The translations under genes and the position numbers were made by a program. Of a stretch of 64,000 bases of DNA, positions 32,996-37,534 are shown piece by piece. This DNA comes from Pseudaquabacterium terrae (GTDB lineage Bacteria; Pseudomonadota; Gammaproteobacteria; Burkholderiales; Burkholderiaceae_C): contig NZ_JABRWJ010000006.1 of the NCBI RefSeq assembly GCF_013266755.1, positions 124,001-188,000 of the forward strand. The letters are read 5' to 3'. Within the stretch, counting starts at the first letter, position 1; each line of letters opens with the position of its first letter. The notes below the pieces were generated by a model. The model worked only from the letters and a program-made list of their open reading frames with translations. It was not told where the DNA came from and ran no database searches.

Positions 32996-34663
32996 TCATG
33001 CGACGCCCAACTGCTTGTTGATGAACCACTGCTGGGCGATGCCCAGGATGTTGTTCGTCAGCCAGTACAGCACCAGGCCGGCCGGGAAGAAGAAGAAGAA
33101 CACACTGAACATCAGCGGCATGATCCACATCATCTTGGCCTGCACCGGGTCGGCCGGCGTCGGGTTCAGCCAGGTCTGGAACAGCGTCGACAGCGTCATC
33201 AGGATCGGCAGGATGTACAGCGGGTCCTTCGCCGACAGGTCGGTGATCCAGCCGATCCACGGCGCATTGCGCATCTCGACCGTCGACAGCAGCACCCAGT
33301 ACAGCGCGATGAAGAAGGGCATCTGGATCAGGATCGGCAGGCAGCCGCCGATCGGATTGACCTTCTCCTCGCGGTAGATGCGCATCATCTCCTGCTGCAT
33401 CTGCTGCGGCTTGTCCTTGTAGCGCTCGCGCAGCTCCATCACGCGCGGGTTGATCGCCTTCATCTTGCCCATCGAGCGATAGGCGCTGGCGTTGAGCCAG
33501 TAGAACGCGATCTTCAGCAGCACCACCAGCGCGACGATGGCCCAGCCCCAGTTGCCGATCAGCGTGTGCAGCTTGTCGAGCAGCCAGAACAGCGGCTCGG
33601 CGATGATCTTGAAGTAACCGTAGTCCTTGACCAGCTGCAGGCCCGGCGCCAGCGCGGCCAGCTTGTTTTCCTCCTGCGGGCCGGCGAACAGCGTCGCCTC
33701 GTGCACGGCCGTCGCGCCCGGCGCGACGGTGCCCAGCGGCAGCACCATCGCCACCGAATACAGGTTGTTGTCGACCTTGGTCGTGCGGAACTCGCGCTCG
33801 GCCTTCTGCGGCACGATCCAGGCCGAGTTGAAGTAGTGCTGGATCATCGCGATCCAGCCGTTGTCGCCCTTGATCTCGTGGCCCGGATCGGCGCCCGGCT
33901 TGCGCTTCTCGATGTCGGCGAACTCGATCTTCTGGAAGTGCTTGGTGTCGGTGTACAGGGCCGGGCCGGTGAAGGCGGTCGGCGCCATGAACATGCTGGT
34001 CGGGGGGATCGTGCCGTCGCGCACCAGCTGCAGGTACAGCTCGGGCTGCAGCGGCGCGCCCGATGCGTTGATCAGCTCGTGCTTGACGCCGATCGTGTAG
34101 TCGCCACGGCGGAAGGTGTAGCTCTTCTTCAGCGTGACGCCACCGATCGGCGGCGACTCGAAGCTCACCGTCACGCTGTTGCTGCCGTCCTTCAGCGTGG
34201 CGTCGCCGGGCACCAGCTTCATCAGCGTCAGGTGGTTCGGCAGGTTGACGCCACCCTGCTTGGTCACCAGGCCGCTCTGCGCGACGTAGTGGCGGTTCGC
34301 GCTGCGGTCGAACAGCAGCAGCGGTCGCTTGGGATCGGCATCGTCGGCATGCTTGAGCAGCTCCAGCCGCACCAGGTCGCCGCCCTGGCTGTCCAGCGTC
34401 GCCTGGTAGACGTCGGTCTTGACGACGAGCTTTTCGCTGTTCACCGGCGCACTGGCGCTGCCCGAGGGGGTCGCGGCCGCGATCCCGGCGCTGCCGCTCG
34501 TGGCGCCCGGCACGCCCAGCGGCGCCGAGCCGGCGGCTGCCGGCCGCGGCGCCGGCGGCGCGAAGAACGACGGCTGGCCGGTGTGTCGATTCCAGGCGTC
34601 CCACAACAGGAACAGCGAGGCAGAGAACACCACCCACAGGATGGTGCGGCGCATGTCGGTCAT
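32996..34663 (-). CDS. yidC: membrane protein insertase YidC
   Basis: 555 residues from the ATG at 34663, which overlaps the yidD stop (ATGA). An N-terminal helix (ILWVVFSASLFLLWDAW), a large periplasmic beta domain (about 60-340) and five C-terminal helices are visible. The core shows YRSMGKMKAINPRVMELRER, the Gly/Pro-rich QMPFFIALYWVLL segment and a final TNNILGIAQQWFINKQL. It inserts proteins into the inner membrane, alone or with SecYEG. The 259-base gap to mnmE holds no recognisable gene; a weak stem (GGTGG/CCACC, 32966-32981) is the only structure. Confidence 0.95.
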   Translation of the reverse strand: MTDMRRTILWVVFSASLFLLWDAWNRHTGQPSFFAPPAPRPAAAGSAPLGVPGATSGSAGIAAATPSGSASAPVNSEKLVVKTDVYQATLDSQGGDLVRLELLKHADDADPKRPLLLFDRSANRHYVAQSGLVTKQGGVNLPNHLTLMKLVPGDATLKDGSNSVTVSFESPPIGGVTLKKSYTFRRGDYTIGVKHELINASGAPLQPELYLQLVRDGTIPPTSMFMAPTAFTGPALYTDTKHFQKIEFADIEKRKPGADPGHEIKGDNGWIAMIQHYFNSAWIVPQKAEREFRTTKVDNNLYSVAMVLPLGTVAPGATAVHEATLFAGPQEENKLAALAPGLQLVKDYGYFKIIAEPLFWLLDKLHTLIGNWGWAIVALVVLLKIAFYWLNASAYRSMGKMKAINPRVMELRERYKDKPQQMQQEMMRIYREEKVNPIGGCLPILIQMPFFIALYWVLLSTVEMRNAPWIGWITDLSAKDPLYILPILMTLSTLFQTWLNPTPADPVQAKMMWIMPLMFSVFFFFFPAGLVLYWLTNNILGIAQQWFINKQLGVA

Positions 34664-34938
34664 GGGCGGGTCTTCGAAAGCAAGCGGGTGAACAGGGGCG
34701 GCTGCAGCGGAACCGGATCGATTCCGCCGTCGCACCAGGGATGGCAGCGCAGCAGCCGCGCGGCCGTGAAGTAGCTGCCGGCGAGCGCGCCGTGGTGCTC
34801 GAGCGCCTGCAGCGCATAGGCCGAGCAGGTCGGCTCGAAGCGGCAGGCGCTGCCCAGCCAGGGCTTGAGCAGCAGGCGGTAGCCGCGGACGACCAGGATC
34901 AGCGTGGCCTGCGGCAGGCGGATCAGTCGCGCGAGCAT
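34660..34938 (-). CDS. yidD: membrane protein insertion efficiency factor YidD
   Basis: 92 residues. The family signature is intact: ILVVRGYRLLLKPWLGSACRFEPTCSAYALQALEHHG with the conserved Cys residues, then LRCHPWCDGGIDPVP. It is an amphipathic, membrane-associated small protein that helps YidC-dependent insertion. It starts 16 bases after rnpA ends and overlaps yidC by four bases, so all belong to the rpmH operon. Confidence 0.95.
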   Translation of the reverse strand: MLARLIRLPQATLILVVRGYRLLLKPWLGSACRFEPTCSAYALQALEHHGALAGSYFTAARLLRCHPWCDGGIDPVPLQPPLFTRLLSKTRP

Positions 34939-34954
34939 GCGATCGGCCGGTCGA

Positions 34955-35434
34955 CTAGCGCTTGCCGGAAGGCGGGGACGGCTGCGCTGCCCGCTGCAAC
35001 AAGGCAGCGAGCTCGACGCGCGCGGCGATCCGCAGCGGCTGCGATGCGGCGCTCGGAAACTGCTGACGGTCGAACGGCGCCTTCAGCCGCACGACCCACA
35101 GGCCGGGCGCCAGGCGCGCTGCGCTATCGCCCATCAGCGCGCGGATCTGGCGCTTGAGCAGGTTGCGCGTCGCGGCGCGCCGGGCATGGCGCTTGGGCAC
35201 CACGGTGCCGAGCCAGCAGCCTGCCAGCGGGGTTTCATCCACAAGCGGTGGGCAACTTGGTGCATCGCCTGTGGATAACTCGCTCGCAACGGCTTTCGCC
35301 GCGCGCCCGGCAGGCAGCGTCGGCCTGTCCGCGACATGGTGGACGGCGAAGTGAGCACTGCGCGAGCGGGCCGGCTGCGCGAGAACGCGTTCGAAGTCGG
35401 CCGATCTCGTGATGGTCAAGATGCGCCCGACCAT
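34955..35434 (-). CDS. rnpA: ribonuclease P protein component RnpA, with internal insertion
   Basis: 159 residues, about 40 more than E. coli RnpA. The RNR signature is clear (VVPKRHARRAATRNLLKRQ, about residues 78-96), as is the N-terminal start ILTITRSADFERVLAQP. The extra length is an insertion at about residues 38-73, between the second strand and the RNR helix, rich in Pro, Ala and Ser. The DNA for this insertion contains two DnaA boxes, one encoding LST at residues 53-55 and the other part of LVDE at 64-67. The protein binds RNase P RNA for 5' tRNA maturation. It lies 32 bases after rpmH. Confidence 0.93.
   Translation of the reverse strand: MVGRILTITRSADFERVLAQPARSRSAHFAVHHVADRPTLPAGRAAKAVASELSTGDAPSCPPLVDETPLAGCWLGTVVPKRHARRAATRNLLKRQIRALMGDSAARLAPGLWVVRLKAPFDRQQFPSAASQPLRIAARVELAALLQRAAQPSPPSGKR
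35235..35278. other. pair of DnaA boxes inside rnpA
   Basis: TGTGGATAA at 35270-35278 is a perfect DnaA box (TTATCCACA on the minus strand). TCATCCACA at 35235-35243 is a one-mismatch box in the opposite orientation, 26 bases away. Both lie in the coding sequence of the extra RnpA loop and about 0.6 kb from dnaA. A perfect box is rare by chance in DNA this rich in G and C. Confidence 0.65.
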
Positions 35435-35466
35435 GCTCAGGCGGGGGTCGCCGCTGTGGCGGGCGA

Positions 35467-35604
35467 TCAGACCTGCGTCAGGCGCTTGCGGCCCTTGGCG
35501 CGCCGGGCGGCGATCACCGAGCGGCCGCCGCGCGTCTTCATGCGCACGAGGAAGCCATGGGTACGGGCACGGCGGGTCTTGGAGGGTTGGTAGGTGCGCT
35601 TCAT
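35467..35604 (-). CDS. rpmH: 50S ribosomal protein L34
   Basis: 45 residues. The sequence begins [19 protein letters not shown] and contains [20 protein letters not shown], nearly invariant in bacterial L34. It is highly basic and binds 23S rRNA. It is the first gene of the leftward rpmH-rnpA-yidD-yidC-mnmE cluster and has a good sigma-70 promoter 111 bases upstream. Confidence 0.97.
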
Positions 35605-35714
35605 GGCTGTGCTGTCCTGGAAAAACTTCTAAGGCGTCCCCTGCCGAGTCGCAAGCACTTCAAGCTCGCTCGACTCGGGCTTACTTAAGGCCGCTGGCGT
35701 TGGGGAAACCCACT

Positions 35715-35743
35715 ATTAGAGCAAAAACCCCTTTTCCGGTCAA
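35715..35743 (-). promoter_or_regulatory. sigma-70 promoter of the rpmH operon
   Basis: On the minus strand TTGACC (35743-35738) and TCTAAT (35720-35715) are separated by exactly 17 bases. This is five of six consensus matches in each hexamer. It fits a strong constitutive promoter for ribosomal protein L34 and the genes behind it, leaving a leader of about 105 bases. Confidence 0.78.
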
Positions 35744-35797
35744 ACACTTGCACGGCGGCATGCGGTTGAGCGGGGGGCTTGACCGCGGCGTCCGAAC

Positions 35798-35867
35798 TGT
35801 GGATAACAGCGCCCTGGCCGGTTGAGGGGGCCTACAATCCGGCCGCTCCCAGAATAAGTTGTCCACA
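35798..35867 (+). promoter_or_regulatory. dnaA promoter region with DnaA boxes
   Basis: A perfect DnaA box (TGTGGATAA, 35798-35806) and a one-mismatch box (TTGTCCACA, 35859-35867) flank a -10-like TACAAT at 35833-35838. The -35 region is weak and partly covered by the first box, as expected for a DnaA-autoregulated promoter. The second box directly abuts the dnaA ATG, so DnaA bound there could also affect translation initiation or early elongation. These boxes may also form part of the origin. Confidence 0.7.
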
Positions 35868-37304
35868 ATGAGCCTAGACCTGTGGCAGCGGGGTTGCGAG
35901 CGTCTCGCGACCGAGCTGCCCGAGCAGCAATTCAACACCTGGATCCGACCGCTACCGGTTGCCGACATCGTCGATGATGGCGGAGAAGGGGCGGTGGCTT
36001 CGGTGCGCGTGCCCAACCGCTTCAAGCTGGACTGGATCCGCTCGCAGTACGCCAGCCGCATCGAGGGGGTGCTGAGCGAGCTGGCCGGCAAGCGGGTGCG
36101 GCTGGAGCTGACGCTCGCCCCGCGCGACCCGCTGCCCGCGCGTGCCGGCGGCGCACCGATCGGCCAGCCGGTGCGCGCGGCCGCACTGCTGAACACCCAG
36201 GGCTTCGCCAACGCGACCAGCGTGCAGCCGCTCGGCGGGCCGCCCAACGGTGTGCACGGCGGCCACCTGCCGCCGGCCGCGCACAGCCATCGGCTGAACA
36301 CCGCGCTGACCTTCGACACCCTCGTCGCCGGTCGGGCCAACCAGATGGCCCGCACCGCGGCGCTGCACGTCGCCGGCGCGCCGGGCGTGATGTACAACCC
36401 GCTCTTCATCTACGGCGGCGTCGGGCTGGGCAAGACGCACCTGATCCACGCGGTCGGCAATGCGCTGCTGAAAGACCGCAGCGATGCGCGCGTGCTGTAC
36501 CTGCACGCCGAGCAGTTCATCTCCGATGTCGTCAAGAACTACCAGCGCAAGACTTTCGACGAGCTGAAGGCCAAGTACCACTCGCTGGACCTGCTGCTGA
36601 TCGACGACGTGCAGTTCTTTGCCGGCAAGGACCGCACGCAGGAGGAGTTCTTCAACGCCTTCGAGGCGCTGCTGGCCAAGCGCGCGCACATCATCATGAC
36701 CAGCGACACCTATCCCAAGGGGCTGGTCGACATCGACGAGCGGCTGACCAGCCGCTTCGACGCCGGGCTGACGGTGGCGATCGAGCCGCCCGAGCTCGAG
36801 ATGCGCGTCGCGATCCTGATCCGCAAGTCGCAGGCCGAGGGCACCGAGATGCCCGAGGACGTCGCCTTCTTCATCGCCAAGAACGTGCGCGCCAACGTGC
36901 GCGAGCTCGAAGGCGCGCTGCGCAAGGTGCTGGCCTACAGCCGCTTCTCGCACAAGGACATCAACATCGCGCTGGCGCGCGAGGCGCTGAAGGACCTGCT
37001 GTCGATCCAGAACCGGCAGATCTCGGTCGAGAACATCCAGAAGACGGTCGCCGACTTCTACAAGATCAAGGTCGCCGACATGTACTCGAAGAAGCGGCCG
37101 GCGTCGATCGCCAAGCCGCGCCAGATCGCGATGTACCTGGCCAAGGAGCTGACGCAGAAAAGCCTGCCGGAGATCGGCGAGCTGTTCGGCGGCCGCGACC
37201 ACACGACGGTGCTGCACGCGGTGCGCAAGATCGGTGGCGACCGCACCAAGGACACCGAGCTCAACCAGCAGCTGCACGTGCTGGAACAGACGCTCAAGGG
37301 ATGA
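35868..37304 (+). CDS. dnaA: chromosomal replication initiator protein DnaA
   Basis: 478 residues from the ATG at 35868 ([20 protein letters not shown]). A TTG three codons upstream overlaps a DnaA box and is less likely. Domain I (1-90) binds DnaB and DiaA-like partners and has [14 protein letters not shown] Pro/Gly-rich linker follows. The AAA+ domain III has Walker [11 protein letters not shown], Walker [11 protein letters not shown] and sensor segments. Domain IV ends with the box-binding motif [15 protein letters not shown]. It melts oriC and loads the helicase. There is no strong ribosome-binding site, which is common for dnaA. Confidence 0.97.
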
Positions 37305-37534
37305 CACATCAGCCGCCTGTCAAGGCACAAGCCTGTGGACAGTTGTCGAACAAGCGGGGGCTCATCCACAGGCGGGGCGCGCGCCGCCGAGTTGTTATAC
37401 GCCGAGCCGCTGTTTCCGGCGCTCCGCCCCACAGGGTTCGTGCCGTCCTAAATCATTGAAATTACAAGCGAAAATAGGGTTCTCCACAGCGCAGCCGGCG
37501 CCCTACTAGAACCACTAAGTTCACAGAGGAAGAC
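37305..37534. other. dnaA-dnaN intergenic region, candidate oriC core
   Basis: This 230-base gap holds DnaA-box-like sequences TCATCCACA (37372-37380) and TTCTCCACA (37480-37488), each one mismatch from consensus, and a weaker TGTGGACAG at 37334-37342. An AT-rich tract (37449-37480, TAAATCATTGAAATTACAAG and following) could be the unwinding element and stands out from the flanking G/C-rich DNA. dnaN promoter elements must also lie here. Whether this gap or the rpmH-dnaA gap is the true origin cannot be settled by eye. Confidence 0.55.

Follow-up and report, generated by a model that had tools for sequence, protein, structure and literature searches.

An in-frame pair of inverted DnaA-type boxes in rnpA, beside dnaA, in a clade of Burkholderiales

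Within the reading frame of rnpA, next to dnaA, Pseudaquabacterium terrae carries two opposed DnaA-type boxes whose letters and 26-bp spacing are under selection as DNA across a clade of its relatives. On comparative sequence evidence, we lean toward the view that this in-frame pair is a dnaA-linked DnaA-binding site for control or titration. The observations that support this view are the selection acting on its DNA letters and spacing, its single change on the DnaA tree, its stable place by dnaA, and its independence of an oriC-like module found between dnaA and dnaN.

Results

Two opposed boxes lie in an extra loop of RnpA

The window (the whole stretch of P. terrae DNA that was analyzed, 64,000 nucleotides) contains the following features around rnpA and dnaA.

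34955..35434, minus strand: rnpA, RNase P protein of 159 aa with an extra loop at about residues 35-72 (Pfam PF00825)
35235..35243, plus strand: second box TCATCCACA, one mismatch, part of LVDE (pattern scan; coding-strand TGTGGA in 62/62 clade sequences)
35244..35269, no strand: spacer of 26 bp, free in sequence and fixed in length (clade alignment)
35247..35255, minus strand: weak middle box TTGCCCACC, separated from the second box by 3 bp, not conserved clade-wide (at least 7 of 9 letters match in 17/62)
35270..35278, minus strand: first box TTATCCACA, perfect, TTA TCC ACA read as LST (pattern scan; TTRTCMACA in 62/62 clade sequences)
35467..35604, minus strand: rpmH (L34), between rnpA and dnaA (Pfam PF00468, E 1.4e-22)
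35798..35806, minus strand: perfect DnaA box upstream of dnaA, 62 bp from its start (pattern scan)
35859..35867, plus strand: one-mismatch box TTGTCCACA, ending directly before the dnaA ATG (pattern scan)
35868..37304, plus strand: dnaA (PF00308, PF08299, PF11638)
37315..37529, plus strand: oriC-like module in the dnaA-dnaN gap, containing two boxes (37362 and 37480) and, ahead of dnaN, a CTACTA stretch (model R1; alignment A2)

The rnpA product belongs to the RnpA family (PF00825, 40.3 bits vs a cut-off of 22.3, E 3.6e-10). The initial annotation of this DNA had placed two opposed boxes with 26 bases between them in an extra loop of RnpA, and the pattern scan confirmed both at the same coordinates. 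Its residue numbers are also right, the Leu of LST being residue 53 and LVDE beginning at residue 64, and its estimate that RnpA is about 40 residues longer than the E. coli protein agrees with 159 aa vs 119 aa for the translated E. coli rnpA. The further boxes that it listed are both present, at 35798 (minus strand, perfect) and 35859 (plus strand, one mismatch), and the window scan added one-mismatch matches at 33121, 37362, and 37480. In the AlphaFold2 model, the loop at about residues 35-72 lies between two strands of the fold, has no regular strand of its own and low-confidence block means of 64-67 pLDDT, and is predicted to be disordered.

Both boxes of the pair in the window match the DnaA-box sequence TTWTNCACA or differ from it by one mismatch. 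Matches with at most one mismatch number 7 in the window vs 1.56 expected, and none of 100 shuffles reached 7. In the whole genome of 8,039,486 bases, perfect TTATCCACA occurs 9 times on both strands and a control, the reversed pattern, 13 times; boxes are therefore not enriched across the genome. The rnpA/dnaA locus holds two of the 9 perfect boxes, 528 bp apart. Chance or base composition as the origin of the boxes was rejected on the basis of the shuffles, the genome-wide count, and the codon-usage expectation described below.

Distribution of the pair among relatives

We compared the window with the best 80 of 581 loci, picked by DnaA similarity with the boxes ignored. RnpA was found in 79 of these 80 named loci; in L005, none was found in the stretch examined. 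The clade with the pair comprises L002-L063 (Rubrivivax, Roseateles, Aquabacterium, Sphaerotilus, Ideonella, and others) and the window, which gives 62 sequences, namely 61 named loci with rnpA plus the window. Its sister group comprises L064-L081 (Polaromonas, Acidovorax, Comamonas, and similar), and the branch dividing the two on the DnaA tree has an SH-aLRT value of 100. LST followed by nine residues and V[D/E] is present in 62/62 sequences of the pair clade and 0/18 of the sister group, and the presence of the pair corresponds to one change on this tree, whether it is counted as a gain or as a loss.

In all 18 sister-group loci, similar anchors enclose a loop, 26-48 residues long, that is devoid of the pair, and the boxes alone thus do not explain the existence of the loop. 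The proposal that the insertion is kept for its boxes rather than for RNase P was therefore too strong, since the boxes are not the sole reason. In the sister-group loop DNA, shared 8-mers around CAGGCCCTGTTT occur in at most 9/18 loci, and no DnaA box was found. In L011, L018, L020, L023, L024, L040, and G570, the loop contains additional LST or ST repeats, which give rise to more DnaA-type boxes preceding the first box. Upstream of dnaA, a box is present in 81/81 rows mapped. The TTGTCCACA-type box lies 8-9 bp before dnaA in about a dozen mapped loci and is found at a different distance or is absent in the others.

Among the 150 matches listed for 250 family genomes with gaps of 11-41, 61 have a gap of exactly 26, in 57 genomes, and the second commonest gap is 17 (n = 21). 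All 61 gap-26 matches are open in the LST/VD frame. When 20 gap-26 sites were retrieved, 17 were in frame within rnpA; the site of G546 and the second sites of G569 and G470 were not. G570 likewise has its gap-26 site at a place other than rnpA. Across the order, the exact pattern matched in 3/399 genomes, lying in rnpA in the P. terrae genome itself and elsewhere in two genomes of another family (L083 and L084). A looser pattern matched in 5/300 genomes, in rnpA in P. terrae and G264 and without an rnpA match in L147-L149.

In L083 and L084 (G353:C11:87095 and G054:C1:3178203), an intergenic DnaA-box cluster holds TTATCCACA-N26-TGTGGATAA, and the identical 26-bp gap thus occurs at an unrelated location. 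The gene downstream of this cluster is presumably an rbgA/ylqF-type GTPase gene, judged by eye. The gap-17 matches, e.g., G625:C12:209667, G427:C20:269080, and G545:C26:47072, equal the distance that separates box I from box III in E. coli DARS and are, by analogy, possible DARS-like elements in this family.

Box letters and spacing are under selection as DNA

The codons of the boxes were compared with expected counts derived from the codon usage of each locus. The Thr of LST is encoded by ACA in 62/62 sequences vs 1.85 expected, the Leu by TTA or TTG in 62/62 vs 5.2 expected, and the Ser by TCA or TCC in 62/62 vs 11.5 expected. Likewise, the Val codon is GTG in 62/62 vs 36.9 expected, and the codon preceding Val has T as its third base in 62/62 vs 3.7 expected. 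On the tree, at least 29 changes of the residue preceding Val left the third-base T of its codon intact, and the Leu and Ser codons have changed at least 12 and at least 8 times, respectively, solely between TTA and TTG and between TCA and TCC. None of the residues L, S, T, and V varies among the 62 sequences. The residue following V-D is D or E in 50/62, and it is K or N in L031, L043, L046, L049, and L053, in which the box becomes TTATCCACA or TTGTCCACA.

The nine spacer codons have a mean pairwise identity of 0.42 vs 0.90 for the boxes, and no strongly conserved motif was found in the spacer in the clade alignment (n = 62). The gap is 26 bp in 62/62, with loop flanks ranging from 6 to 35 residues before and from 6 to 46 residues after the pair (flanks measured in 61/62). 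In the rnpA gene of G570, which is outside the 62, the first box is present in duplicate and the gap is 23 bp, indicating that the spacing is fixed strongly but not absolutely. An alignment in which the codons stay constant while the flanks drift had been suggested as a check, and the outcome is strongly in favor of the DNA letters being what is kept.

The pair stays beside dnaA when the oriC-like module moves

A module with DnaA boxes and CTACTA is conserved between dnaA and dnaN, both in the window and in many relatives. Model R1 matched it at G000:C53:161315-161529 with an E value of 1.9e-39, the module of the window being itself among the 24 training rows. The first module profile was built from 35 seed sequences including the window and excluding G538, and the second model from 24 rows. 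In the complete genome of G538, the first profile found the module ~98.6 kb from dnaA (E 8.8e-22, 36 stretches scanned), and a whole-genome search with the second model found one copy, at G538:C1:98656-98856. The GC skew sampled in this genome turns from -0.015 at 80-100 kb to +0.059 at 100-120 kb, near the moved module, and is also about zero over 140-160 kb and again below zero over 200-220 kb in the sampled stretches. Perfect boxes cluster at the moved module as well; from the skew turn and this cluster, the oriC-like module is probably the origin. The pair of G538, LSTACPPDGHSVVDE, is in frame in rnpA, beside dnaA and ~99 kb from the skew turn. On the contig of the window, the GC skew is too weak to place the origin, and the minimum of the 360 kb examined lies 107 kb from dnaA.

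We located the pair and the module in 55 genomes picked for having the pair; of the 57 genomes with a 26-bp gap, only G546 and G570 were excluded, because their gap-26 sites are not in rnpA. Of the 55 sites, 15 were confirmed in frame and 7 have coordinates within the mapped rnpA (G405, G470, G569, G418, G503, G561, and G557); the others were assigned from their position next to dnaA. Both the pair and the DnaA C-terminal domain are on one contig in 53 genomes; the distance between them is 1.6-2.4 kb in 52 of these and 5.2 kb in G561. Of the 53 pair genomes with a module match, 35 have the module at most 1.5 kb from the DnaA C-terminal domain and 18 have it elsewhere. In 11 of these 18 genomes, the module shares a contig with dnaA, at a distance of 44-144 kb in nine (G538, G405, G470, G569, G471, G503, G411, G533, and G615) and of ~6 kb in two, and 7 carry it solely on other contigs of draft assemblies, in which a contig break could mask a near copy. 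Three module copies are present in G633, G557, and G448, and two in G548, G563, G458, G405, G470, G569, G433, G549, G411, G615, G533, and G507; multiple copies are in some cases adjacent and in others distant or on different contigs.

In the named loci, the module was classed as absent in L006 (28-bit match, 119-bp gap) and as present in L010 (12.6 bits, boxes visible), and L039, L059, and L062 were left unclassed. The first box and the gap are kept in 19/19 named loci without the module adjoining dnaN. The full second box is present in 15/19 loci without the module vs 36/40 with it (Fisher P 0.42, kinship ignored and three loci unclassed), and the state of the second box is not significantly linked to module position in the named loci. 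On the tree, at least eight changes are required to account for which loci have the module between dnaA and dnaN. As the module moved while the pair stayed by dnaA, the pair is probably not origin DNA. The idea of the initial annotation that origin DNA, not protein, is kept here thus holds in part: the codon data bear out that the letters are kept as DNA, but an origin role is made improbable by the module moving while the pair stays.

Box identity and the dnaA region

In the 62 sequences, the first box takes the forms TTATCCACA (17), TTGTCCACA (12), TTATCAACA (12), and TTGTCAACA (21), so that its position 6 is A in 33/62, outside the E. coli consensus TTWTNCACA. The second box is TGTGGAY[AG]A in 53/62 and deviates in 9/62. 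The DnaA of the window is identical to that of E. coli at 13/13 domain IV positions compared. From these sequences, DnaA is likely to bind the pair in rnpA.

A promoter and terminator scan of 34900-36000 found none, including no sigma-70-like promoter. In G561, which has an intact pair, rpmH and dnaA are ~3.6 kb apart with other genes between them, a layout that argues mildly against short-range looping to dnaA.

Discussion

We propose that a pair of inverted DnaA-type boxes separated by 26 bp would be accommodated in a disordered loop of RnpA that tolerates almost any residue, and because the loop accepts almost any residue, the DNA would dictate the codons of LST and V-D-D/E. DnaA would occupy both boxes, probably as a dimer or a small oligomer across the fixed gap, and its occupancy would tune the supply of DnaA. 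This could proceed through autoregulation of the divergent dnaA/rpmH-rnpA region, jointly with the box upstream of dnaA, and/or through DnaA being held at a site next to its own gene. The autoregulation route has no promoter anchor, since the scan of 34900-36000 gave no sigma-70-like promoter.

The initial annotation had read the pair as an outlying part of the origin, i.e., an upstream DnaA-recruiting subregion of an oriC split around dnaA. In the window, ~2 kb separates the pair from the oriC-like module, the module adjoins dnaA in 35/53 pair genomes, and bipartite origins with dnaA as a spacer are known (PMC4285127). We nevertheless consider a split oriC unlikely: the pair remains where the module has left dnaA (18/53 genomes and 19/19 named loci), the state of the second box has no significant link to module position (Fisher P 0.42, kinship ignored), and the skew of G538 turns near the moved module and not near dnaA, in sampled stretches that are negative again at 200-220 kb. 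It is quite improbable that the pair is a DARS-like or datA-like site altering the nucleotide state of DnaA. The datA locus consists of DnaA boxes around an IHF site. The boxes in rnpA are opposed as DARS boxes I and II are reported to be (PMC8682772), but a DARS core was rejected on comparison with the E. coli DARS1 and DARS2 sequences, in which the gap is 5 bp and a third box follows 3 bp on, as opposed to a gap of 26 and no conserved third box here.

The prevalence of A at position 6 of the first box (33/62), where C or A is found and the E. coli-type DnaA consensus has C, makes another DNA-binding protein preferring TTRTCMACA possible in principle. Such a protein is nonetheless very improbable, given that 29/62 first boxes are TTATCCACA or TTGTCCACA, that the second box is DnaA-like in 53/62, and that the site adjoins dnaA. 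The inverted boxes might also pair as a hairpin in the rnpA mRNA, for which they are near-complementary (91.5% of cells pair). In the 60/62 rows compared, two identical rows being omitted, a two-sided change occurred in 0/9 pairs, the pair of positions 6 and 39 was broken in 32/60 sequences, and covariation was 0.074 vs a shuffled mean of 0.081; with no covariation above the shuffled mean, the hairpin is unsupported and hardly credible. As for retention of a protein motif LST...VD for RnpA itself, the invariance of L, S, T, and V in 62/62 would agree with it, but synonymous positions are locked on rare codons, the third base is constant beneath a changing residue, K or N after V-D turns the box into TTATCCACA or TTGTCCACA in five loci, the loop is predicted to be disordered, and the motif is missing in 18/18 loci of the sister group. 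The codon data exclude this motif as the sole cause, and we regard the chance that it is the explanation as negligible.

Beyond the dnaA-linked control or titration site that we favor, we suggest tentatively, from the sequence comparisons, that the pair could represent a separate dnaA-linked class of replication-control element: a 26-bp inverted pair, neither oriC nor DARS, that is embedded in the reading frame of the essential RNase P gene, dictates part of the protein, and survives repeated moves of the module. In this clear example, the codons, and even some residues, of the RNase P protein subunit are set by a DNA site serving another process, and the LST/VD motif in these RnpA proteins should not be taken as a protein feature. 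Because the module is displaced from dnaA in several relatives and the pair is not, DnaA control sites become testable apart from the origin. We found no report of DnaA boxes inside rnpA in the part of the open-licence literature searched, which does not prove absence; in passages from papers naming rnpA, DnaA box, and oriC together, rnpA appears as an origin neighbor or in references.

Several known systems resemble the pair in part. The dnaA gene was the first found to be regulated by DnaA (PMC8203912), and the autoregulatory boxes of the E. coli dnaA promoter are, like the pair, DnaA-type boxes linked to dnaA; in contrast, the pair lies several hundred bp upstream, within a coding gene of the divergent operon, and has a fixed 26-bp inverted geometry. 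The cores of E. coli DARS1 and DARS2 also contain opposed boxes (PMC8682772), whereas their 5-bp gap and third box differ from the gap of 26 and the lack of a conserved third box in rnpA. The origin of Bdellovibrio is located between dnaA and dnaN (PMC5124646), the same gap as that of the oriC-like module of this clade, but the pair in rnpA is distinct from the module and does not accompany it when it moves. In E. coli, DnaA boxes are concentrated near the origin region (PMC12371093), and the DnaA titration regions are similar to the present locus in this respect; unlike them, rnpA harbors one pair of fixed geometry inside a gene instead of a high-density field of boxes.
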